From Holophagae bacterium (GTDB lineage Bacteria; Acidobacteriota; Holophagae; Acanthopleuribacterales; Acanthopleuribacteraceae), in NCBI GenBank assembly GCA_029263455.1, contig JAJCXM010000026.1, positions 62,001-126,000 of the forward strand: a DNA stretch of 64,000 bases, in the 5' to 3' direction. The translations under genes were made by a program, and so were the position numbers. The notes beneath the pieces are model-generated. The model did not search any database, was not told the origin of the DNA, and saw nothing but the letters and a program-made list of their open reading frames with translations. The first letter of the stretch is position 1, and the number at the start of each line of letters is the position of its first letter. Shown here in pieces: positions 4,267 to 31,707 of the stretch.

Positions 4267-5661
4267 ATGCATCAACCTCATAATATATTCCGATCTAGCC
4301 TTGGCCAAAGCAGCACAGCCATTATCGTGAGCCTGTTCATACAAATCATTTTTGCAGGGTCATTGATGGCTCAAACCATAGGCACAGGATTCACACTAGG
4401 GACCACCACCAGCGATCCATTTGGAACGGGCGGCGCCAACCTCGGCTGGGGTAGCGGTAGCCAAAACGGGACTGGAAATCATGTGGTCACCAACCGTGCT
4501 GACAATGGTGGCCGTATAGATATGGACGGCGACGGTCTGTATGAATTCGCCGCCCTTAACCCACAGGGTAGCGACAACCTCATCATTATGGAATCCACGG
4601 CAGACAATACTTACGTCAAGGTCTGGGGAATTAGCCTAAACGGCTCCAACCTAAACAGTGGCGGCCTGGCCGTTGGCGACTCCGACGGTGATGGCATGTT
4701 AGAAATAGTCGCGAGCGACGCCGCATCCGATTTGGTGCGCATTTGGGAATACGATCCCGCGTTGGGAGCAGGTCAAATCGTAGACGGTACAAATCCTGCC
4801 GACACACCCAAATTGTCGCGAGCGGTCACCGATCCAATTGGCATGACCATTGGAGACTTAGATGGAGATGGTTTTTTGGAAATCTTAATGACCTCGACCA
4901 ATGATACAGACAGCTTCATCATTGTTGAATCATCGGCCGACGACACCTGGTCAGCCAATGATTCCACCGCTGTCGGCACAGCAGGATTCGGCGCCACCGG
5001 GATCAGCCACGTCATGGACCTTGATGGTGACTTGACCAACGAAGTGGTGATCGGCCCCGACTCGCAAGCACGAGCGGATAACGCCTTTTATGTCTACACA
5101 TGGGACGGATCTACCTTCACTGTTGAAGCCACCCTACCGTTGGCGGCAAGTGGAGGTGGTCGCAATAGTGTCTTTGTCTATGACCTGGACAGCATGGGTA
5201 CACCTGAAATCATTCTGGCTGATCAGGCGACGACTGATCGGGTCTACGTTTACGAGTCAACGGCCGCAAATAGCTATGCAGCTGACGCAGGAACAAGCGG
5301 AATAGTTGGTCTCACTGGCGAGATTTTTGCGCCTTCGGTTGGTGATCGCGATAGCGACGGCAATCACGAAATCTACCTGGCCTTCGACGATAATTCGCAT
5401 CGCGTTATTTATTATGAACACGATGGTACCGCTGGTGCCTTCGCGGCAGCCAATTTTGGCGCCCAACAAGTATTGATCACCTTGGACACCAATAACAAAG
5501 ATCCCCGCGACGTTGCCTATGGCATGGGAAGTTTAGATGTTGGCGGTGACACCAGGGGTGACATTATCGTCTCCGACCAGGATGCACGATTATTGGCATT
5601 AGAATCAGACTCAGACGGTTCACAGGTGCCGATTGAGTTGCTGTCGTTTATGGTGGACTAA
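4267..5661 (+). CDS. Exported FG-GAP/VCBS-like repeat protein
   Basis: A 464-residue exported protein with a long hydrophobic signal segment at about 18-35 ending in LMAQ. The mature part has about six repeats with calcium-loop-like Asp-rich motifs (DMDGDGLYE, GDSDGDGMLE, GDLDGDGFLE, DLDGDLTNE, YDLDSMGTPE, GDRDSDGNHE), typical of FG-GAP/VCBS beta-propellers found in cell-surface or secreted binding proteins. The C-terminus PIELLSF resembles the PVELTSF stretch seen near the end of many Bacteroidetes secreted proteins, but no sorting domain follows. The ligand and role are unknown. It converges on the sigma factor gene with overlapping stop codons. Confidence 0.8.
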   Translation: MHQPHNIFRSSLGQSSTAIIVSLFIQIIFAGSLMAQTIGTGFTLGTTTSDPFGTGGANLGWGSGSQNGTGNHVVTNRADNGGRIDMDGDGLYEFAALNPQGSDNLIIMESTADNTYVKVWGISLNGSNLNSGGLAVGDSDGDGMLEIVASDAASDLVRIWEYDPALGAGQIVDGTNPADTPKLSRAVTDPIGMTIGDLDGDGFLEILMTSTNDTDSFIIVESSADDTWSANDSTAVGTAGFGATGISHVMDLDGDLTNEVVIGPDSQARADNAFYVYTWDGSTFTVEATLPLAASGGGRNSVFVYDLDSMGTPEIILADQATTDRVYVYESTAANSYAADAGTSGIVGLTGEIFAPSVGDRDSDGNHEIYLAFDDNSHRVIYYEHDGTAGAFAAANFGAQQVLITLDTNNKDPRDVAYGMGSLDVGGDTRGDIIVSDQDARLLALESDSDGSQVPIELLSFMVD

Positions 5662-6239
5662 GACAAGTTTGCAGCCCGCATTTGCAGCGCATCCGTTAGT
5701 TCGCGTTTCAGCCAAATGCGGGCAAACATCCACCTTCTTGTCAGTGTAGTACGCCCCAAACTCATCACGGAAGCAGCCTCGTTCACGCTCAGCCCGCCAA
5801 AATAGCGAAGTACAACCAGTTTCGCAGCCGAGGGATCGATAAGCGCGAGTCGGTCTAGCGCTTCATGCAGAGCCAAGACGTCAATCTCGTTTCTTTCTGA
5901 ATTCGTCGACACGTTTTGCTGACCGGGATCGGATCGCTTAATACGACGTTTGCTGCGATGGTGGTCAACCAATATCCGCCTCATGATCTGTGCTGACACG
6001 GCTAAGAAGTGAACGCGGTCGTGCCAAATTGCCCGATCTTGATTGACCAGTCGAAGGAAAGTTTCATGTACCAACTCCGTAATTTGCAGGGACATATCTC
6101 CGTCTTCAACTTGCATTCGCTTGGCGGCAACCCGCTTTAAGTCGGCATAAATCAACTCGAACACCTGTTCGCCCGCCTCATTTGAACCGCTTGACCAACG
6201 TTTCAGGAGCAACGTGATGGCACCATCATTAGCATTCAC
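5658..6239 (-). CDS. ECF sigma factor (TIGR02999/Sigma70_ECF type)
   Basis: A 193-residue ECF sigma factor with region 2 (about 25-95; LVHETFLRLV, then HFLAVSAQIMRRILVDHHR) and region 4 (about 120-185; LVVLRYFGGLSVNEAASVM and helix-turn-helix GRTTLTRRWMFARIWL). No anti-sigma gene is adjacent; the kinase gene upstream ends inside its start (ATGA overlap), so the two are coupled. The acidic DAED motif usual in region 2.2 is replaced by Q-I-T-E with Thr54. In the ECF43 group of sigma factors a threonine in this region is phosphorylated by a neighbouring kinase (from memory), so kinase control is inferred. Target genes are unknown. Confidence 0.9.
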   Translation of the reverse strand: MNANDGAITLLLKRWSSGSNEAGEQVFELIYADLKRVAAKRMQVEDGDMSLQITELVHETFLRLVNQDRAIWHDRVHFLAVSAQIMRRILVDHHRSKRRIKRSDPGQQNVSTNSERNEIDVLALHEALDRLALIDPSAAKLVVLRYFGGLSVNEAASVMSLGRTTLTRRWMFARIWLKRELTDALQMRAANLS

Positions 6240-9112
6240 TTTTGCGACCCCTCTATAAGCGGTTCATGAACAGGGAGCGCGCCAAGCCTGTATTCAAATT
6301 CATCAACTCGAGCGCGATCACCGACACTATTAAAGAGTTCAAGCAATCGCAACGAAGCTAGCCGACTCGCATGCGTGTCATCGCCTTTCAGACAGACAAG
6401 CTCTTCATGATGTGTCACAACATGGGCAAGGCCTTCATTGAAATGTCCCTGTTCCGCCATGACCCGACCAACCACCGTTTCCGCATAAGCAATCCGCCAA
6501 TGCCCATAGGGGAACAGCTGGTGATATATAGCGGCGGCAAGTTGCGTTTGCTGCCAGGCATCTTGTGGACGTTTTTGAGCCAATAGAAAATCGGCATAGT
6601 TATTTCTCATTGAAGCTACGTTGGAGGAGTTTTCTCCTGAGGCTTCAATTAAGATATCAAGTCCTTGCCTAAAATTCTGATCAGCTTGATCAATTTTTCC
6701 CAATAAGGCCAATGATATGGCTTGATGACCAAGTGAGCTTCCGACGACCAATGATCGTTCACCGGCCACCGCACGACCTATGTCTAACGCTTGTTCAAAG
6801 GAGGCGATGGCCATCTCATCGTTGGCCAAACAATGTAACGCCAGTCCTAGTCCGTTATAAAACTGGGCTTGCATCTCATGGCCTTGCGGCCAAATGTTCA
6901 ACGAGAGACGGATACCTTGGTCGTAATAATCAAGTGCCGTCTCATAATTACCATTATCGATCGATAGCCCAGCTAGGTTGCTTAGGTAACTCACCAAGCT
7001 TGGGTGCTGGTCACCAAGACCTTGTTTACATCGATTCAAGGCCTCCAAATACATGACTTCGGCCTTTTTGAAATCACCCTTTTGCTGGTAGATGAACGCC
7101 AGGGTATTCAAGCCATTGGTGATATTCGGATGTTGATCTCCAAAGAGCTTCTTCGTGATCTCTAGACTCTGGAGCTGTAGCGATTCAGCTTCAGCATATT
7201 TGGTTCTACTGACCAAAATGGCGGCGAGGTTTGACATCGCATGGGCCAGCTCACCTCTGCCGACCCGCATTTCTCGTAGTCGTAGGGCTTCACGAGCGGC
7301 TAATTCAGCTTGCTCATAATCACGCCGTCCCCAATGGACTTGAACCATAATATTCAGACAGTCGGGTTCAACATTGTTGTTTTTCGAATCAGGCCCAAGC
7401 GCATTTAAGAGATCTATTGCATGCTTTTCGGCTTGGTCATAGTCACCTTGCAGGATGTTTACTTCGGCAGCATTCAACTTAGCTTTTTTGGTCGACAAGT
7501 GATGAGTACCCATCACATCAATGTAGATGTTTAACGATTCATCCGCTGTCCGTTTTGCGTCCTCTAAGTGTCCCAGAGCCCGATATAACATTGAAAGTTC
7601 TAGTAAACTCTTTGCGGTCGCTTGATGACGATGCCCATGCTCCCGCTTCCGCAATTTCACTGCATCTTCCAGAAAGGGTAACGCTATGTCGTAATGGCCC
7701 AATCCCCGGTAAACCACGCCCATGGTTTCCTTGAGCTCGGCTGTGAGGTCAGGGCTCAAGTCAACTTCCGCCTGCAAACGCTTAGCGGTTTGATCCAAGA
7801 TCTCGCGAGCACTTATCTGATTACCATCAGTATTGACAGGGTTAGCGAGATCGAAGGCGCCAATCAAATATTGAGAAACGGCTCTTGCTTGATCGCGTTC
7901 GATGGTTGTTTGGCGGGCTTGGTTCACACCAAACGAGGACAGAACCGCTATGACAATGAAGGCAGCAAACCCAATTGCCGATTGAACCGGATGGCGGCCA
8001 ACCAACTTCCGCAAACGCTGTAATAAACTTAAAGGACGAGCTTTCACCGCATGACCCGAGAGGTAACGACGCAAATCCTCAGCAAGATGATCAACTGACT
8101 GGTAGCGCTGGGCCGCTTCAAAATGCATGGCCTTTAAAACCACACTGTCAAGATCGCTGTCCAGGCCCTGAGATTTAGGGTAGTTTGCCGACGCGCAGAC
8201 ACGAGCGCTAGGCGCGGCATAGTCGTTCCAATCTGAGACCGTCAGTGCCGCCAAATCGCGATGGCTCCAATCATATGGTCTCGTGCCGCTACAAATTTCG
8301 TACAGCAAAACACCCAATGAATAGATGTCCATGGTGATGGATGCGTTATGTCCTGCCATCTGCTCCGGGCTCGCGTAATTAGGCGTCAAGGCCCAGTCAC
8401 ACCGATTAATGATCAATCTATCTGCGGACCCAGCAAGCAGGCTGGCGATGCCGAAATCGAGTAGTTTTACCTCACCTGTTTCGGTCACTAAGATGTTGCT
8501 GGGTTTTAAATCTAAATGGACCACCAGCTCTTTGTGCGCGTAATGAACGGCGTCGCAAACATTCAAAAATAGATTTAGCCGCGCCGTCAAATCTAACCGT
8601 TGTTGAAAACAATAATCTGTCAGTCTTTTTCCTGCGACCAACTCAATGACAGCATAGGGTCTGCTGTCTAACCTTCCCGCATCTAATAAACGAGCAATAT
8701 GGCGGTGCTCTAAGCCGGCCAGAATCTGGCGTTCAATTTCGAAACGCGATTCAAGGTTGATGAAATGGGAAGCATGAACCACTTTAATGGCAACCTCGCG
8801 CGCGAAAGCGCCGTCATTACGAACAGCTCGGTACACGCGTGCCATACCACCTTCACCTATATCATCGGTAATCAAGTAAGGCCCAATTTGGCGACCAATC
8901 CAGCTTGGATCAAGGACTTCAATGTCTGGATTGAATAGCGGCAATTCTAAAAAATCACCTAGTTCACTTTGTTGGGCGAGCAACTGTTGAACGTGCGCCT
9001 TAACTTCCTCATCAGCCGTAGACTGCAAAACAAACTGCGTTTGTTCATTGCCTTCAAGGGCTAACGCTTGTTCGACAATGGTCTGAACCAATCGCCACTG
9101 CTCTATCGACAT
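6236..9112 (-). CDS. Membrane-anchored Ser/Thr protein kinase with TPR sensor region
   Basis: A 958-residue protein. A Hanks-type kinase domain spans about 78-350: glycine loop GEGGMARVY 86-94, ATP lysine K110, DFG 219-221, SPE 248-250. One membrane segment lies at about 378-397, followed by roughly 550 residues of TPR repeats outside the kinase (GHYDIALPFLEDAV, LAFIYQQKGDFKKAEVMY). The catalytic loop reads HLDLKPSN at 199-206, with Leu in place of the Arg of HRD, while Asp201, Lys203 and Asn206 remain; it may be active but not regulated through activation-loop phosphorylation. The ATG at 9110-9112 is chosen because AGAAGAGG precedes it; the longer TTG start has no such site. It overlaps the downstream sigma gene by 4 bases, and together they form a signalling operon. 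Confidence 0.92.
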   Translation of the reverse strand: MSIEQWRLVQTIVEQALALEGNEQTQFVLQSTADEEVKAHVQQLLAQQSELGDFLELPLFNPDIEVLDPSWIGRQIGPYLITDDIGEGGMARVYRAVRNDGAFAREVAIKVVHASHFINLESRFEIERQILAGLEHRHIARLLDAGRLDSRPYAVIELVAGKRLTDYCFQQRLDLTARLNLFLNVCDAVHYAHKELVVHLDLKPSNILVTETGEVKLLDFGIASLLAGSADRLIINRCDWALTPNYASPEQMAGHNASITMDIYSLGVLLYEICSGTRPYDWSHRDLAALTVSDWNDYAAPSARVCASANYPKSQGLDSDLDSVVLKAMHFEAAQRYQSVDHLAEDLRRYLSGHAVKARPLSLLQRLRKLVGRHPVQSAIGFAAFIVIAVLSSFGVNQARQTTIERDQARAVSQYLIGAFDLANPVNTDGNQISAREILDQTAKRLQAEVDLSPDLTAELKETMGVVYRGLGHYDIALPFLEDAVKLRKREHGHRHQATAKSLLELSMLYRALGHLEDAKRTADESLNIYIDVMGTHHLSTKKAKLNAAEVNILQGDYDQAEKHAIDLLNALGPDSKNNNVEPDCLNIMVQVHWGRRDYEQAELAAREALRLREMRVGRGELAHAMSNLAAILVSRTKYAEAESLQLQSLEITKKLFGDQHPNITNGLNTLAFIYQQKGDFKKAEVMYLEALNRCKQGLGDQHPSLVSYLSNLAGLSIDNGNYETALDYYDQGIRLSLNIWPQGHEMQAQFYNGLGLALHCLANDEMAIASFEQALDIGRAVAGERSLVVGSSLGHQAISLALLGKIDQADQNFRQGLDILIEASGENSSNVASMRNNYADFLLAQKRPQDAWQQTQLAAAIYHQLFPYGHWRIAYAETVVGRVMAEQGHFNEGLAHVVTHHEELVCLKGDDTHASRLASLRLLELFNSVGDRARVDEFEYRLGALPVHEPLIEGSQK

Positions 9113-9169: not shown

Positions 9170-9187
9170 ACCCACTTGCAAGTGGGT
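9170..9187. promoter_or_regulatory. 18-bp perfect palindrome upstream of kinase-sigma operon
   Basis: ACCCACTTGCAAGTGGGT is a perfect 18-bp palindrome 58 bp upstream of the kinase start. On the minus strand its TTGCAA centre could be a -35 element with TAGTTT 16 bp downstream as -10. A regulator dimer binding here would act on the operon promoter. It is not followed by a T-run, so it is not a terminator. Confidence 0.45.
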
Positions 9188-9404: not shown

Positions 9405-11387
9405 ATGATGTGCTGGCTGTTGCTATTTCTCCTGGCATCAGATCATGAATTGTCTCGTTTGATTGAGCAACCGCTGACCGATTTGGAATGGAATGTGGCG
9501 GCCGAATTAGACGACAACGAAGCTGTTATTCTGAAACAAGTCCTTAAGATCAATAAAGATAGCTATGAGCACTTCATCCGCATCCGCGTACTTTCTGATG
9601 ATGGCCGCAACGCGCCCGAGACCATCGAGCTACCGGGTAATATTGCTGAGTTACGGGGACGAATTATCGACCGATCTGGCGTGGTTACGGCTTTCGATCT
9701 CAAACACGACGTAGTCCAGCAACTGGATATCAAGTCACGTGATGAGGAGAAATCTCACTACGTGTTGATTCCACCGGGGATGACCGGCAACTGCATTTTT
9801 GAAATGTATTGGTCAGAACCCACTGAAGAAGGATTACCCAAGGACATTGGCCACTATACTTACCCCGTCCTTTCGGCTTATCCCTGTGTGGAAAAAACAA
9901 TCTTCATTTGGCACGCGCTGGACAATTTTTCAAAATTACTCTACTCCGACGGCATTTTTACGCTGATCACCCGCTACTATTGGACAAGTATTGAAGCGCC
10001 CACCCAATTTACCCAGCAGATTCTCGGCGATTACATTGTTTTGAAGTATCGGGATGTGCCACCAGCCAGAGTCTATCCCTATGGTGCCCCCGAATTTGAT
10101 CAGCGGGCAGCCCGCTTTGTGATTTACAAAACTCTTCCGGTCGAAGAGATGACGCCAGCCCAGTTTTGGGACGAAACATCGTACTTGTTGTTCAAGTCAC
10201 TTTACCAGACCGAGTATATAAAAGGCTCTAACTACCGGGAATGGATTTCACAACTGCGCTTGGACTTGCCGTCTCTATCGCCGGAAGGTGCCCGCTATGT
10301 GTATAACGAATTCCGGAACAAGATCCATTGTGTGACCAACTTGGGGCATGAACGTCGCACAAAGATATCTTTGAACGCAGGTCCGATTACGGCTTTCGAA
10401 CCCGAGATGATCAATCGCTCTTTGCAACGTGGATTCGCGTTTCCATCTAATATGCCCATATTGCTCTATCATGTTTTTCGCGACTGCGGCTTTCCCGCCC
10501 AATGGGTGTTCACCACACCTAGTTTACAAATCCCTTTTCGGCCTCAGGATATGAATGTTTTCTCGCTCGATTTGGATCAACCCTTAATCGGTCTCTGGAA
10601 CAAGGACGGGCAGGCCTACTATTTTGCGGCCTCACGACCGGAAATGCCTGCCGGGCTTGCACCCGAATCAGTGATGGGCGGCAAGGGAATGGTGATTAAT
10701 CCAAAGAACTGGCATCACCGTATGATTGAGATGCCAAAGTACCCTCGCTCGACACATAAGTTATTGCGTAAATTCAATGGCCGTTTTCAGGCCGATGGCA
10801 CGATGCATTTCAACCTATTGGAGAAGGGGACCGGTGAGTTTGAAGCACGACAACGAGCTACCCATTTCGGTCTGACCCCTGATGAGCAGAGCCAGTCCCT
10901 TAAACGGGAAATGCGACACCGTATGAGGGGCTGGCAAATAAGATCAGCGAGAGTGGCCCATGCGTACGATCCCCACAAAGAGATCCTCTTAACGGTTACT
11001 GGCGACCGCAAGACGCCCATCGTTGCAGGCACAGCCCTGATTCCAGCCTTTCCCGACAATCATGATGAGTTGGATTTCCCCTATGTCTGGCCTGACGACC
11101 GATCGCAGCCGGTTCTTCTGCCGTATGTCTTCACTTTAGTAGAGTCGAGCGAGTGGCAAATACCCGTTGGCTGGCGTGCACAATTCCCTCAGAACACTGA
11201 CTACTCCTCTGATGCAGGCCGAGTAAAGGTGACCTTTGAGGAATCCGGTCAGCTTGTCCGCGTGCGACGTGAAGTGTTCCTTGACCAGTGGTTATTTACA
11301 ACCCAAGAATCGGATCAGATTCGCGACTTTCTGTGGACTTGGATCCAAGATCGGGGCATCTACATCAAACTGGAGAAGATGCCATGA
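9405..11387 (+). CDS. DUF3857 protein with inactive transglutaminase-like domain
   Basis: A 660-residue protein with a short hydrophobic N-terminus (MMCWLLLFLLAS), probably exported. The order fits the DUF3857 family: an N-terminal beta-rich domain (about 30-240) and a transglutaminase-like middle (about 250-420), then a C-terminal beta domain. The middle domain keeps the framework (SLQRGFAFPSNMPILLYHVF, then FRDCGFPAQWVF) but the position of the active cysteine in the usual G-D-C-K-D reads G343-F-A-F-P, so no thiol catalysis is expected. Its stop overlaps the next gene's ATG by 4 bases. Substrate is unknown; it may act as a partner of the next protein. Confidence 0.8.
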   Translation: MMCWLLLFLLASDHELSRLIEQPLTDLEWNVAAELDDNEAVILKQVLKINKDSYEHFIRIRVLSDDGRNAPETIELPGNIAELRGRIIDRSGVVTAFDLKHDVVQQLDIKSRDEEKSHYVLIPPGMTGNCIFEMYWSEPTEEGLPKDIGHYTYPVLSAYPCVEKTIFIWHALDNFSKLLYSDGIFTLITRYYWTSIEAPTQFTQQILGDYIVLKYRDVPPARVYPYGAPEFDQRAARFVIYKTLPVEEMTPAQFWDETSYLLFKSLYQTEYIKGSNYREWISQLRLDLPSLSPEGARYVYNEFRNKIHCVTNLGHERRTKISLNAGPITAFEPEMINRSLQRGFAFPSNMPILLYHVFRDCGFPAQWVFTTPSLQIPFRPQDMNVFSLDLDQPLIGLWNKDGQAYYFAASRPEMPAGLAPESVMGGKGMVINPKNWHHRMIEMPKYPRSTHKLLRKFNGRFQADGTMHFNLLEKGTGEFEARQRATHFGLTPDEQSQSLKREMRHRMRGWQIRSARVAHAYDPHKEILLTVTGDRKTPIVAGTALIPAFPDNHDELDFPYVWPDDRSQPVLLPYVFTLVESSEWQIPVGWRAQFPQNTDYSSDAGRVKVTFEESGQLVRVRREVFLDQWLFTTQESDQIRDFLWTWIQDRGIYIKLEKMP

Positions 11388-13285
11388 TAGCTTTGATTTT
11401 GGGTATTTATGCGCAGACCCTGCACTTCCAGTCTCAGAAAAGCCTACCCACATGGTCGGACAGCTATCTGGAAGATCCTATCCCTGTTTATCTTCAAGAA
11501 GAAGATGTTTTGGTTCTGCTTGATGAAGTCGTCGTTCATGCAAACGATGACGGCAGCGTTCGAGTCATTCACCGATCACTGCGAAAAGTACAATCCGAGC
11601 TGGGTGTGGAACGAGCCTCGGTTTTCTCCTGCTTCAATCAACTGGGCGGTACGAAGGTAGAACGCCTAGATGGCTGGCACCGATTTGCTAACGGCAACCT
11701 TGAAGTCTTAGGCAGCGGTCAAATCGTTACGGTCGGCGCTCCGTCGTCGAACGCTGTCCACGATGGACAAGTGACGATTGGCTACTTTCGCAAAGTTGCC
11801 CGTGGCTCCGTTATCGCTTTTGAAAGCGAGGAAATCGTTGACCTGTTTCTTGGCCCCATTCTTCCTTTTCCGATCCTTGCCGATATGCCAACGGTACACA
11901 AACTGTTTAGGGTAGAACAAGCGGAATTGATTCAACTTCAACCACTGAACTTGGAAGCATGGGGCTTGATCGCTCAGCCCTTGAACGACGGTCTAGAATT
12001 CAAGCTGCTTCCGGCAGATCGGCAGCGCGACTGGGCTCCTCAAAGTCGAGGATACTGGCCCGTTGTTTTTGCTCGCATGAAGCACGCGCGCACTGATTCT
12101 TATCGCAACTGGAATGAACTCGCGCATTGGTACAACGGTGTTTTCACCAAGGCGGCCTTACCCAATCAAAAGGAGCGCCTAAAACCATTAACCAAACTCG
12201 GGCTATTTAACCAAACAGCCCAGTCAATCAAAAGTAAGCTTGCCTACCGGCAGGTCTATTTGTCGCCCCACCGCGGCTGGATCCCAGACGCTGGTGAAGA
12301 AGTATTTAAGCGTTCTTTTGGTGACTGTAAAGACATGGTTTCCTGCAGTGCCTATTTGCTGGCTGAGCAAAATGTGTCTGCTTACCCAACTCTTGCCAAC
12401 GTCTACGACGGATTTGACTTCAAAGCCCAAGATCCGGCTAATCCCTGGTTCAACCACGTCATTGTGGCCATTCCACTACAAGCAACATTGGGCTTGGCGT
12501 CCGAAGTGGTAGCCCGCGAAAAGCGGTTCTTGCTGTACGACCCAACCGCGCAACACACACCGGCCGGAACCTTACCGCGTGCATTTCTCGGACGCCATGT
12601 CCTAATTTGCACGGCAGACGGCGGCTATTGGATTAGTGTTCCCGAATCTGCTTTAGAACCGGCACGAACCGACTTTAGCTTAAATGGTGATCTAGATGAA
12701 GCAAATGGCTTTCGCGGCGAATTTGTCATTCTAGAAAAAGGTAACGCGATAGGCGTTCGCCAGACGCTCAGCAGTTCCACAAAAATGAACCGCGAAAATT
12801 GGATACGCAAAGCATTTCAAATACCTGTCGACGCCAAGGTAGAGCTACTAGATTTTCAAAGTGATGAACTCGGCGGCGTCAGCTTGCGTCTCCATGTGAC
12901 TTGGCCACAATTCCTAAAAACAGGCCCGCTGGGAAGTCGCCTACCACCAGCGATAGTTCCTCCTGCCCTTTCTTATTACGGTCAAAATGAGTCGCGCAGG
13001 CAGGCGCCTCTTGCTCTACCAAGTTGGCCGCTTCAATCCTGGACCATAACATTGAAATGCGAGCGCCCGTTGCAACCGCTTCAGGCTGAATTTGACTGGT
13101 CTAATGAGCATCATCGTATCCATTGGCAAGTGAACACCGACTCACAGCTGCTGATCCGTTTCGAAACACAAGGCAACAGCGAGGTGTTTACAGGCAAGCG
13201 CGTAACACTGGGACTCAGCCAGCTTGCGGAGCTTCAGCTTAACTATGAACGCTTTGCGTTGTTCACGCCGCTTTTTTCTTTATAG
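11384..13285 (+). CDS. DUF3857 transglutaminase-like protein, triad intact
   Basis: A 633-residue exported protein, starting at the ATG that overlaps the previous stop (ATGA); the first 16 residues (MIALILGIYAQTLHFQ) are a short hydrophobic leader. DUF3857 occupies about 25-230. The transglutaminase-like domain has a complete Cys-His-Asp triad: GDCKD with C315, FNHV with H358, and YDPT with D386. The family includes cysteine proteases and acyl transferases acting on peptides, and many members sit in the periplasm of Bacteroidetes and Acidobacteriota. The pairing with an upstream paralogue that has lost its cysteine suggests a two-protein complex. The substrate cannot be inferred. Confidence 0.83.
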   Translation: MIALILGIYAQTLHFQSQKSLPTWSDSYLEDPIPVYLQEEDVLVLLDEVVVHANDDGSVRVIHRSLRKVQSELGVERASVFSCFNQLGGTKVERLDGWHRFANGNLEVLGSGQIVTVGAPSSNAVHDGQVTIGYFRKVARGSVIAFESEEIVDLFLGPILPFPILADMPTVHKLFRVEQAELIQLQPLNLEAWGLIAQPLNDGLEFKLLPADRQRDWAPQSRGYWPVVFARMKHARTDSYRNWNELAHWYNGVFTKAALPNQKERLKPLTKLGLFNQTAQSIKSKLAYRQVYLSPHRGWIPDAGEEVFKRSFGDCKDMVSCSAYLLAEQNVSAYPTLANVYDGFDFKAQDPANPWFNHVIVAIPLQATLGLASEVVAREKRFLLYDPTAQHTPAGTLPRAFLGRHVLICTADGGYWISVPESALEPARTDFSLNGDLDEANGFRGEFVILEKGNAIGVRQTLSSSTKMNRENWIRKAFQIPVDAKVELLDFQSDELGGVSLRLHVTWPQFLKTGPLGSRLPPAIVPPALSYYGQNESRRQAPLALPSWPLQSWTITLKCERPLQPLQAEFDWSNEHHRIHWQVNTDSQLLIRFETQGNSEVFTGKRVTLGLSQLAELQLNYERFALFTPLFSL

Positions 13286-23706: not shown

Positions 23707-25172
23707 ATGAAAAGACACAGGTCCATTGAGTTACGTTCCAAGTGGCTTGCTCTGCTGTCGCTCTTGATAAGCATCAATTGCTGGAGCCAGACTACCGCAG
23801 CTAGCCTTGGTGGGTGTGGTGATGCACTGCCCGAGCGTATTCTCGAAGCCAACCCGGGTAACTACCTATCCATGATCGCTAACCTTATGCCCGGCGATCT
23901 GCTCAATTTATCGGCTGGTGATTATGTGGATGGCTTGAATCTGCATGATTTAGCAGGCGAGCCAAACCGCTGCATTACCATTTCAGGGCCACAATCAGGG
24001 CCGCCCGCCGTGTTTATTGGACGGGATTGTTGCAACACCATTAGCTTGAGTAATGCGAGCTACTTAGTGATTCAACACTTTGAAATCGACGGAGACAGCC
24101 GTCTAGGAGATGCCATCAAAGCGGAAAGCACCAGCAGTTCTTGCCACCACATTACCTTGCAGAACCTTTCAATTACCATCAAGACGTCAATCAACAAGTG
24201 GTAGGCATCAATACTAAATGTCCTACCTGGAACTGGGTCATTCGCCGCGTTCAAATTGACGGTGCCGGAACGGGCATGTACTTGGGGGATTCAAATGGAG
24301 AAGACGAATTCGTCAATGGCCTCATCGAATTCAATGTGGTGACCAATACAATCGGCTACAACTTGCAGGTTAAACACCAGAACGGCCGTGCGACCGGACT
24401 GGGAAGTCCAGCCAATGGACAGACTCTGATTCGCCATAATGTATTCCACAAGACCGATACCAGCAGTTCAGGTGGCGCTGCCCGACCCAACGTCTTGGTC
24501 GGTCACTGGCCGCTCACTGGAGACGGATCAGACGATCACTATCTAATTTATGGGAACTTCTTTTTCCAGAACCCCAGCGAGAATTTGTTTCAGGGTGAAG
24601 GCAATATTGCCTTCTACCAGAACCTCTTGGTTACAAATAGCGGAGGCGCGATTGCCATACAACCGCACAACGATGTGCCAAAGTCGATCCGTGTATTTCA
24701 GAATACCGTCCTGTCTGTAGGCACCGGCATACATGTGAGTGGCGGGAACCCTGGATTTACGCAAGAGGTCGTCGGTAACGCGGTATTTTCTGATTTCCCA
24801 CTCAATGGTGGTGATCAGATAGATAATGTAACCGACGATTTTGACCAAGCAAGTGTCTACCTCAACAATCCCAGTGGCGACCCCCTACTCGGCACACTTG
24901 ACCTTTATCCTGTGGGCGGACTGATCGGATCGCTTCTCGACCTGTCCAACATGCTTAGCTACGAAGCATGGGATCTAGACTTCAACGGGAGCGCCAGGAA
25001 CGGAACCGTGCGCGGGGCTTATGTCGGGCAGGGTGTAAACCCGGGTTGGGTTTTGGCCATTGAGGTCAAGTGCTTGCTGGGCGCTGGGACTCCACTTTGG
25101 GATCAGTGGCCTAGCCTGTCGGTGATTTCTTTAATTGCCCAGCTCGGATCAACTTGCTCAGCCCCACCCTAA
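23707..25172 (+). pseudogene. Exported right-handed beta-helix protein, frameshifted
   Basis: Two overlapping frames encode one protein. The first (from ATG 23707) has a signal peptide (WLALLSLLISINCWSQ) and a beta-helix start (LEANPGNYLSMIANLMPGD, CITISGP) and runs to a stop at 24204. The second continues from about 24172 to 25172 with NQQVVGINTKCPTWNW, GAGTGMYLGDSNG and further helix turns. The switch lies around 24170-24176 (TCAATTACCAT); one extra T there would restore a single frame, so a one-base deletion is likely, real or a sequencing error. The intact product would be about 488 residues, resembling parallel beta-helix proteins (pectate-lyase fold). The start could instead be ATG 23599. 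Confidence 0.82.
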
Positions 25173-28236: not shown

Positions 28237-28842
28237 TTAGGTTTGCCCTAGTTCCCGATACAACCATGCCTTGGCAAGGCGCCACTTGCGGACAACCGTT
28301 GCCCGCGATGTCTCCATCAGCTCTGCGGTCTCATCAATCGATAAGCCACCAAAAAAGCGCAGCTCCACCAGCTTGGCTTTGTCGGGGTCTATCAAAGCCA
28401 GTGCATCGAGCGCCACATGCAGAGCAACGATGTTTTCCGGCTCCTGCATTGAAACGTCGCCCAAGTCTTGTAAAGAAACTATCGTCAATTGCCCGCCACG
28501 TTTTTCGGCCAAACAAGCGCGCGCGTGATCGGTCAAAATGCGGCGCATGGTTTGTGCGGCTATCGCAAAGAACTGCGCTCTGTTTTTCCAAGTAATTTCC
28601 TGATGGCCAATCAGCCTGAAATAAGCTTCATGGACTAAAGCTGTGGGTTGGAGCGTATGGTCAGGTCGCTCTGAATTCAAACATTGGCGCGCCATTTGAC
28701 GCAAGGTGTCGTAGACCTTGATCATAAGCTCATCCGATGCCTGTTTATCGCCGTTTTGCCAGTCGTTGAGCAAACGAGTGATGTCCTGAGCTTTTGTGTT
28801 TGGGACGCGGCGATTCGATTCCATGCATTGGATTATCGTCAT
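28237..28842 (-). CDS. ECF sigma factor (TIGR02999/Sigma70_ECF type), second copy
   Basis: A 201-residue ECF sigma factor, a paralogue of the one at 5658-6239. Region 2 (about 40-105) has TALVHEAYFRLI and QFFAIAAQTMRRILTDHAR; region 4 (about 138-195) has LVELRFFGGLSIDETAELM and RATVVRKWRLAKAWL. As in the first copy the acidic region-2.2 motif is missing, and Q-P-T-A with Thr67 takes its place. It lies 15 bp downstream of a kinase gene on the same strand, so kinase control is inferred. An alternative start at Met7 (28824) is possible, and neither has a clear ribosome binding site. Confidence 0.9.
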   Translation of the reverse strand: MTIIQCMESNRRVPNTKAQDITRLLNDWQNGDKQASDELMIKVYDTLRQMARQCLNSERPDHTLQPTALVHEAYFRLIGHQEITWKNRAQFFAIAAQTMRRILTDHARACLAEKRGGQLTIVSLQDLGDVSMQEPENIVALHVALDALALIDPDKAKLVELRFFGGLSIDETAELMETSRATVVRKWRLAKAWLYRELGQT

Positions 28843-28857
28843 GTTTCAGTGCAAATG

Positions 28858-31707
28858 CTATTTGGATTTGCTTGTATGGACCAAATTGTAATGCGTGAAC
28901 AGTGGGTCGAGCTCACGGTCTTGGATACCGCTATTTCTGAGGATTGGTAGCAATTTTTGTAAGCTTTCATAATCACCCAGATAAAAATACGCCTTGGCCT
29001 CATAGACCCGATCCCACAAGGTTAGCGGATCGTTGTGCTCTTGGGTGCGTGTCAGTATGGCGTTGAAATGCACTTTCGCTTCATCGCCGCGTCCCTGCCT
29101 ATTTAAGACTCGCCCCTTCATGTAATCCCAGCTCTGCCAGTAGGAATGGTCGTCGGTTAGGTCACAAGAAGCTATCTGCAGTCTCAAATGATCTAAGAGC
29201 TGGTCACATTCGTTATTTCTACCTTGAGTCAATCGAATGCGAGCACGAAGTAACTCGGCCTTAATAGCTAACTTAGCATCGCGAACTGGGTTTTTGGCAC
29301 ACACGTCCAAGACTTCACAAACACCATCCTCGGCCGCATTCAAGTCATCTGATTGAAACAGGGCGCACGAAAGTTCAAAAAGAACTTGCTGACTCTTATT
29401 CTTATCGCCGTGTCCTTCAGATCTTATGTGATAGGCCCGCTGCAAAAGATGTATCGACGCTTCATAGTGACCCAAGTAACATTTAGATATGCCCAATCCA
29501 TGCATGAATTCGGCAATGGATTCATGGTCCAAACCAAAGGTATCCAACTGTATTTGCAGAGCGCGTTCCCTCAGCCGATCCGCTTCGACAAAATAACCTT
29601 GTCTTAAATCCACGCTAGATAAATTGAACAGCGTGTTTGCAGTATTGGTATGGTCAAGTCCAATGGTTTTTTCGTAAATCGTAAGCGCTTGTTCAAAATA
29701 GCTCGCTGCCTTTTGCGGATTGCGATCCATGCTTGCGAGGGCAACGTTATTGAGGCTATAGGAAACGGCACTATGGTGCTCGCCTAGCTGTTTGCGTCTA
29801 ATCGCCAAGGATCGCTCATAGTTCACCAACGCGTCATCGATGTGGCCTTGGGCTCTTTGGTTTCCAGCCAGAGCGTCGAGGCAATCGGCGACATGGCCAT
29901 GATCGGGGCCAAAAACCTCAATGGCGATGTCCCTCGCGTTCTCCAGGTACGGTTGAGCTTGATCATATTGGCTTTGAAAAAGGTACAACGATCCTAAATT
30001 CATGTTGATCGATGCAATATCTCTGTGAAGAGGTTCTAGAATACGTTGACGTATTTGCAGGCATTCCAGATAGTGTTGTTCTGCTATGGCATAGTTACCG
30101 TTGAATTGATTGGTGACGGCCAGCAATTCTAGCGCATTAGCAAGCTCCTTTTCGCTTACAGGCCCCAGTTCTCGCCAGGTACTTAAACCTTCATTTAGGA
30201 CAGCCTGCGCGTCGTTATACTTTCCAAGCAGAAAGTAGACTTTACCCATCGTATTCAGCAATGTCGCCTTGACCTCAGGCTGACTGTCCATTTCGGACCT
30301 TAAACGCAGTGCGCCGTCGTCTAAGACCTCTCTGACCGTGAGTTCACCGCCCTTTGATTTATCCGGATCCGCGTTTTCAAATAGATCCACTAAGAACTTC
30401 GAAATGCTGTTGGCTTTGTCGCGTTCCAGTTCAGCTCTGTCCCGTTCAGCTGCAACGCGTCGCGATTGGATGTTGGCTGTCACCACAAACGAAACCAACA
30501 AGAGAACAAAACACGTGAACCCTGCAACCGCCAATGCGTTTCGTTTTGCGAATTTGCTGGCCACGTACCAAAACGTCTCCTGCCTGGCTTTGACTGGTAG
30601 GCCCTTCAGGTATCTGTCCAAGTCTTCGCTGAAAGCACTCACGGACCCGTACCTTCGTTCTGGGTCGTGTCTAAGTGCCATCATGACAATGTTATCTAAA
30701 TCACCCTTGATGGCTTTGTGCCATGCAACGGAATCGCGCCCCGTCTTATCGAAATCGGTGCCTGTTTGCCTTTGGATTGCCTCACTTGGGCATGTACTTC
30801 GGGTTCCTGGACCCGTAGCATATTCACCTTGGAAGTCAGGGGTTACGCCAGTCAAGAGTTTAAACAGCAGAACGCCCAGCGAATAAACGTCACTGGAGGT
30901 TGTAATCGAGAGACCTTTGCGTTGTTCCGGACTTGCGTAACGCGGCGTCATTGGGTTCATCTTGGTTTTTGTCTGATCGAATGCTTCCAACCAAGGCGTA
31001 GATCCAAGTAGTTTTGCGATGCCAAAATCTAGCAGCTTGGGTTCACCATTGCCGGTGACTAGAATATTGGAAGGTTTAAGGTCACGATGCACGATCAGGT
31101 TGCGATGGGCATGTTCAACGGCATCCGCCACCAATCGGAATAGGCGTAACCGCTCCTTGATCGAGAGCTTATGATTCGTGACATATTGATCAATTGGGAT
31201 ACCGTCGACGTGCTCCATGACGATGTAGGGTCCCGTTGAGGGAGTACTGCCTGCATCCAATAGTTTGGCAATATTGGCATGGTCCAAAGCGGCCAGGATC
31301 TTACCTTCCACCTCGAAACGGCGAAGCATTTCTTGGCCGAGCACACCGGATCTGAGGATCTTGATGGCCACATTCCGGTCAAATGTACCGTCTATCCGCT
31401 TGGCAAGGTAAACGCTACCCATGCCTCCATGTCCCACCAAGCCGACAATTTCATAATTCCCAAATCGCTCACCCACCATTTGGGGTCCAACCACCATCGT
31501 CGGATCTTCTATTCCAATGACGGGTTGTTCCAGAAAATGTGAGGAATTGAGCCAGGCGGCCAATAGTTCGGAAACGGCTTCTCGCAAGTCGGAACGATCC
31601 CCGCACAATTCAGTCAGGACCTGCTGTCTTTGGTGTTCCGGTTCCTCAAGAACTTGGTTGAGAATGTCTTGTTCCAACTGCCATCTATTCAGATCCGTGT
31701 CGCTCAT
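28858..31707 (-). CDS. Membrane-anchored Ser/Thr protein kinase with TPR sensor region, second copy
   Basis: A 949-residue protein with the same layout as the first kinase: kinase domain about 84-370 (GHGGMGSVY 92-100, ATP lysine K116, HRDLKPSN 207-214, DFG 227-229, SPE 259-261), one membrane segment about 391-411, and TPR repeats from about 450 onward (GKYNDAQAVLNEGLSTW, GNYAIAEQHYLECLQI, YFEQALTIYEKTIGLDH). Unlike the first copy the HRD motif is intact, so the kinase should be fully active. It lies 15 bp upstream of its sigma factor gene. The TPR part is on the far side of the membrane from the kinase and may sense a protein signal. Confidence 0.93.
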   Translation of the reverse strand: MSDTDLNRWQLEQDILNQVLEEPEHQRQQVLTELCGDRSDLREAVSELLAAWLNSSHFLEQPVIGIEDPTMVVGPQMVGERFGNYEIVGLVGHGGMGSVYLAKRIDGTFDRNVAIKILRSGVLGQEMLRRFEVEGKILAALDHANIAKLLDAGSTPSTGPYIVMEHVDGIPIDQYVTNHKLSIKERLRLFRLVADAVEHAHRNLIVHRDLKPSNILVTGNGEPKLLDFGIAKLLGSTPWLEAFDQTKTKMNPMTPRYASPEQRKGLSITTSSDVYSLGVLLFKLLTGVTPDFQGEYATGPGTRSTCPSEAIQRQTGTDFDKTGRDSVAWHKAIKGDLDNIVMMALRHDPERRYGSVSAFSEDLDRYLKGLPVKARQETFWYVASKFAKRNALAVAGFTCFVLLLVSFVVTANIQSRRVAAERDRAELERDKANSISKFLVDLFENADPDKSKGGELTVREVLDDGALRLRSEMDSQPEVKATLLNTMGKVYFLLGKYNDAQAVLNEGLSTWRELGPVSEKELANALELLAVTNQFNGNYAIAEQHYLECLQIRQRILEPLHRDIASINMNLGSLYLFQSQYDQAQPYLENARDIAIEVFGPDHGHVADCLDALAGNQRAQGHIDDALVNYERSLAIRRKQLGEHHSAVSYSLNNVALASMDRNPQKAASYFEQALTIYEKTIGLDHTNTANTLFNLSSVDLRQGYFVEADRLRERALQIQLDTFGLDHESIAEFMHGLGISKCYLGHYEASIHLLQRAYHIRSEGHGDKNKSQQVLFELSCALFQSDDLNAAEDGVCEVLDVCAKNPVRDAKLAIKAELLRARIRLTQGRNNECDQLLDHLRLQIASCDLTDDHSYWQSWDYMKGRVLNRQGRGDEAKVHFNAILTRTQEHNDPLTLWDRVYEAKAYFYLGDYESLQKLLPILRNSGIQDRELDPLFTHYNLVHTSKSK

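Follow-up and report, generated by a model that had tools for sequence, protein, structure and literature searches.

How is an ECF sigma factor controlled when its gene adjoins that of a Ser/Thr kinase and no anti-sigma gene accompanies it? The question is raised by two overlapping genes (module 1) on the minus strand of the window, by which we mean the whole 64,000-nucleotide stretch of Holophagae DNA analyzed here. The kinase gene comes first (6236–9112), running from an ATG at 9112 to a TGA at 6238–6236 and encoding 958 amino acids, followed by the gene for a TIGR02999-type (ECF43-type) sigma factor of 193 amino acids (5658–6239), which runs from a GTG at 6239 to a TAG at 5660–5658. The kinase stop and the sigma start share the four bases GTGA (6236–6239), read from the sequence, and both genes are preceded by plausible ribosome-binding sites (AAGAGG for the kinase, GAGGGG for the sigma factor). 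The reading we favor, with a probability of roughly 0.75, is that module 1 forms an ECF43-type phosphorylation switch, in which the kinase acts on Thr54 of the sigma factor in place of anti-sigma control.

A previous, sequence-only reading had described the four-base overlap without an anti-sigma gene, and a Pfam scan of the flanking genes (4267–5661, 9405–11387, and 11288–13285) indeed revealed no anti-sigma domain; the positions it gave for the kinase, sigma factor, overlap, Thr54, HLD leucine, and palindrome all proved exact to the base. The first of the flanking genes, an FG-GAP repeat gene on the plus strand, converges with the sigma gene and overlaps it by four bases (5658–5661). The other two are long, mutually overlapping plus-strand genes divergent from the kinase, the nearer one with a weak Pfam match to DUF3858 and the farther one with no Pfam match. 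Their position, and nothing else, makes the divergent genes in 9405–13285 candidates for control by the sigma factor.

The region upstream of the kinase contains an 18-bp perfect palindrome, ACCCACTTGCAAGTGGGT (9170–9187), located 58–75 bases ahead of the ATG. Its presence inside this 292-bp intergenic gap has an expectation of about 0.005, but the location was picked after the fact. A second perfect palindrome of this length, GAAGGCAATATTGCCTTC, lies within an open reading frame of the window (24597–24614), and four of at least 18 bp occur in the 290 kb of genome sampled. Leader structure is unremarkable (z −1.6). The element is the only perfect copy in the genome, where the nearest other match has two mismatches; sites within three mismatches number 26, versus 14 for a reversed control, and no consensus promoter was found to overlap it. 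The palindrome is confirmed as a sequence, but as an operator, whether a shared one or one at the kinase promoter where the previous reading placed it, it has no support.

The family matches of both proteins are beyond chance. The sigma factor scores 168.7 bits against TIGR02999 (cut-off 126.15, E = 1.2e-49), a family with 23 members over cut-off in this genome, and 143.9 bits against PF07638 (cut-off 21.1, E = 6.6e-42), while the kinase matches Pkinase (PF00069, 1.3e-40) and TPR_12 (2.4e-48). Region 2.2 of the sigma factor reads Q-I-T-E, with the predicted phosphorylation site Thr54 (codon ACG, 6078–6080, minus strand) equivalent by motif to T51 of EcfK from Xanthomonas citri and to the corresponding residue of EcfP from Vibrio parahaemolyticus. 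Of 146 relatives, taken from this and related genomes as well as from named public ones, 133 have Thr at this position, 7 have Ser (140/146 together), and 6 have another residue; 26 have an acidic residue at the next position. The published figures for ECF43 are a consensus of QTTA, a Thr conserved in 88%, and an acidic next residue in 15.8% (PMC13147305). Judged at the sequence level, then, Thr54 is a family signature and QITE an ordinary ECF43 motif, nearest to the QATE of EcfK. Our ECF43 assignment is based on motif, TIGR02999 membership, and gene neighborhood, and the previously proposed link to ECF43 and EcfP is well supported by the family match, the prevalence of Thr, the overlapping partner kinase, and the absence of a detected anti-sigma domain.

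Two closely related sigma factors, one in the same genome (L067, 6435–7025) and one in a same-genus genome (L099, 5441–6019), carry Ala (QPAG) where Thr54 would be, have no kinase gene within 3 kb, and are possibly kinase independent. A general link between a missing Thr and a missing kinase was considered and dropped, as the numbers are too small (no kinase for 3 of 5 sigma factors without Thr, versus 40/119 of the others).

Thr54 had also been described as part of a motif that replaces the acidic one of region 2.2. We aligned the protein with four further ECF-like sigma factors from this genome, all of them under the TIGR02999 cut-off; the alignment places Thr54 (6080–6078) at the third residue of the canonical motif and Glu55 (6075–6077, minus strand) at its last Asp, with Gln at the first acidic position. 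The description is thus true only in part: QITE is present, but Glu55 retains one acidic charge, and by this alignment the acidic motif appears only partly lost.

The retained charge in region 2.2 is an argument against a switch at Thr54, as is the behavior of EcfK, which shares the Thr-Glu arrangement and in which the T51A variant is functional, whereas linker residue T106 is critical (PMC13147305). Because EcfK tolerates the Thr-to-Ala exchange and its linker Thr weighs more, Thr54 need not be the sole switch. The sigma factor may instead be activated mainly through phosphorylation of the linker between sigma2 and sigma4, which in module 1 holds S111, T112, and S114, with Thr54 playing a secondary part and Glu55 already providing charge. 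This remains the most plausible of the alternatives, if clearly the less probable account, given that so many relatives retain Thr54 and that the module 1 linker is four residues shorter than that of the nearest relative, which makes the equivalence of linker sites uncertain.

That nearest relative is common to both proteins. In separate quick trees, the sigma factor and the kinase each group with the same module (L121) in a Thermoanaerobaculia MAG (JAUIDB010000009.1) with an SH-aLRT support of 97%, at identities of 52% for the sigma factor and 49% for the kinase domain. The relative also has overlapping sigma and kinase genes and keeps both Thr and Glu (QVTE), but its sigma gene precedes the kinase gene with an overlap of eight bases, and its kinase has HRD, the majority state among the compared kinases, and a Thr-rich loop (DEETTRTLTPNY). 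A same-genus genome yielded no match above 43% identity, and a search of 396 phylum genomes yielded one above 50% (G074), which, with identical motifs, is apparently the L121 contig itself. Conservation of Thr54 in close homologs, as expected from the previous reading, is thus borne out in the single closest one; for true orthologs it rests on this single pair, with the wider family as backing.

A second module in the same window (module 2, 28237–31707) likewise combines a TIGR02999 sigma factor (LQPTALVHEAY) with a TPR kinase and has the kinase gene first. It differs from module 1 in its HRD kinase, a Thr-containing loop, a 15-base gap instead of an overlap, and placement in another clade of both trees. 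There it belongs to a kinase-first clade with a pair from the same genome (L062) and one from the same genus (L083, sigma factor 71% identical); the kinase of L083 has HSD although its close relatives have HRD. A co-directional kinase adjoins 82 of 148 sigma relatives, and among these pairs (L061–L200 plus the window) the sigma gene comes first in 75 and the kinase gene in 7, five of them in this genome.

The module 1 kinase consists of an N-terminal extension (residues 1–75), a kinase domain (approximately 77–340), a single hydrophobic segment (378–396, mean hydropathy 2.2), and a TPR region. This corresponds to a PknS/PknT-like receptor kinase, with a kinase domain, one putative membrane segment, and C-terminal TPRs; the predicted topology has the TPRs as ectodomain. 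The best solved match to the kinase domain is 9eed_A (E = 1.2e-36), a "Kinase domain protein" of 364 residues. It is evidently PknS, the kinase of EcfK, since its length and residue range agree with those of the published PknS 1–364 structure.

The catalytic loop reads HLD, as previously noted, with Leu200 (codon TTA, 8515–8513, minus strand) in place of an Arg that is present in 50 of 54 compared kinases and serves most relatives of this kinase in activating themselves. By the usual criterion, an Arg in HRD, the kinase is non-RD. This Arg is the only one missing among the catalytic residues compared: the Lys, the Glu, the Asp of HxD, the Asn, DFG, and the APE-type Glu are all present. Also absent are the common loop acceptors. 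The activation segment (IASLLAGSADRLIINRCDWAL, 8386–8457, minus strand), which extends from DFG to the P+1 residue Thr243, has no Ser or Thr at −10 to −4, and the positions matching PknB T173 and T171, which we take to be the loop phospho-acceptor sites, are Arg and Ile, respectively, when counted back from Thr243. The missing Arg and acceptors suggest activation without loop autophosphorylation, a previous surmise that is reasonable and strengthened by the Ile and Arg at the PknB positions but not proven.

A caveat is the plant receptor kinase EFR, which is non-RD and is reported to be regulated and activated by loop phosphorylation (PMC8463890). The module 1 kinase could in the same way depend on other loop residues despite HLD, and both the Ser residues near DFG (ASLL and GSAD) and Thr243 are available. 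We consider this unlikely, given the residues at the two PknB positions and the pattern in a wider set of 148 kinases, deliberately enriched for those without the Arg, in which a loop free of Ser/Thr at −10 to −4 occurs in 8 of 30 kinases without the Arg and in 4 of 118 with it (Fisher p = 3e-4, kinship ignored). The count is sensitive to the loop-window setting (an early set gave 7/13 versus 5/118), and a tree-based test has low power: the kinase tree shows at least 18 changes in the Arg trait, but the independent-pairs test includes six supported pairs (median p 0.5), too few for a sign test to reach significance. The coupling of Arg loss to loop Ser/Thr loss is hence a suggestive lead, not an established one. 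A speculative extension, to which we give little credence, is that both features have been lost repeatedly in some of the receptor kinases that activate sigma factors; these kinases would pass phosphate to the sigma factor without loop autophosphorylation, gated directly by the TPR ectodomain.

Loss of the Arg as such is an uncommon but recurrent variation. Of 54 kinases encoded close to sigma factors of this family, in this genome and related ones, 4 lack it (HLD twice, HAD, and HSD), and in the wider set it is missing in 5 of 82 co-directional sigma-kinase pairs. In pattern searches, 11 of 297 phylum genomes had HLD-type loops (one match reading HFD) and 93 of 396 had loops of the Ala/Gly/Ser/Cys type, which rules out HLD as a unique feature. 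In another pair of the same genome (L064, 12460–15881), the kinase reads HAD and its activation loop is very short, with Asp-Glu-Glu in place of the acceptors.

The absent Arg could mean low kinase activity, and the genome contains many related kinases (116 matching stretches), yet a weakly active or inactive kinase that serves as a scaffold, or phosphorylation of the sigma factor by another kinase, is improbable with all other catalytic residues retained, a reading frame intact over 958 residues, and a nearest relative common to kinase and sigma factor.

In the ECF43-type switch that we favor, the membrane kinase would sense a signal through its TPR ectodomain, and the cytoplasmic kinase domain would phosphorylate the adjoining sigma factor at Thr54 and possibly also at Ser/Thr residues of the linker. 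The added negative charge would then allow the sigma factor to engage RNA polymerase and drive transcription of its regulon, replacing anti-sigma control. By analogy with EcfP and EcfK, such phosphorylation and effect are most likely. As the kinase is without the HRD Arg and loop phospho-acceptors, it would probably be switched by means other than loop autophosphorylation, presumably dimerization or the ectodomain, or be basally active. Cross-talk is conceivable among the approximately 24 paralogous sigma factors and the many kinases of the genome, which weighs against this reading.

Module 1 hence pairs an ECF43-type sigma factor and a TPR receptor kinase, an already known kind of system, and its kinase is of the less common, though recurrent, non-RD form. 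It is one of about two dozen gene switches of this genome in which phosphorylation by a membrane-bound sensor kinase probably turns on the adjoining transcription factor, and it adds a predicted acidobacterial example of sigma-factor phosphorylation. The number of family members would make the specificity of kinase-sigma pairs testable across paralogs within one cell, and the non-RD kinase presents a natural test of whether ECF43-type activation needs loop autophosphorylation.

Phosphorylation at the matching Thr has been published for both EcfP (PMC8999054) and EcfK (PMC13147305). Like module 1, the EcfP/PknT system combines a phosphorylatable Thr in region 2.2 with a partner kinase gene and no anti-sigma factor, but the EcfP motif is STTA, with every acidic residue gone (PMC8999054), whereas the module 1 sigma factor keeps Glu55. 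Because of this retained charge, EcfK is the better guide: in both proteins, Thr is followed by Glu (QATE in EcfK, QITE in module 1), and PknS is likewise a membrane kinase with an N-terminal extension, a kinase domain, one membrane segment, and TPRs (PMC13147305). The two kinases differ at the active site, where the catalytic loop of PknS is canonical and its activation-loop Thr243 is considered important, whereas the module 1 kinase has HLD and lacks loop acceptors at the PknB positions.
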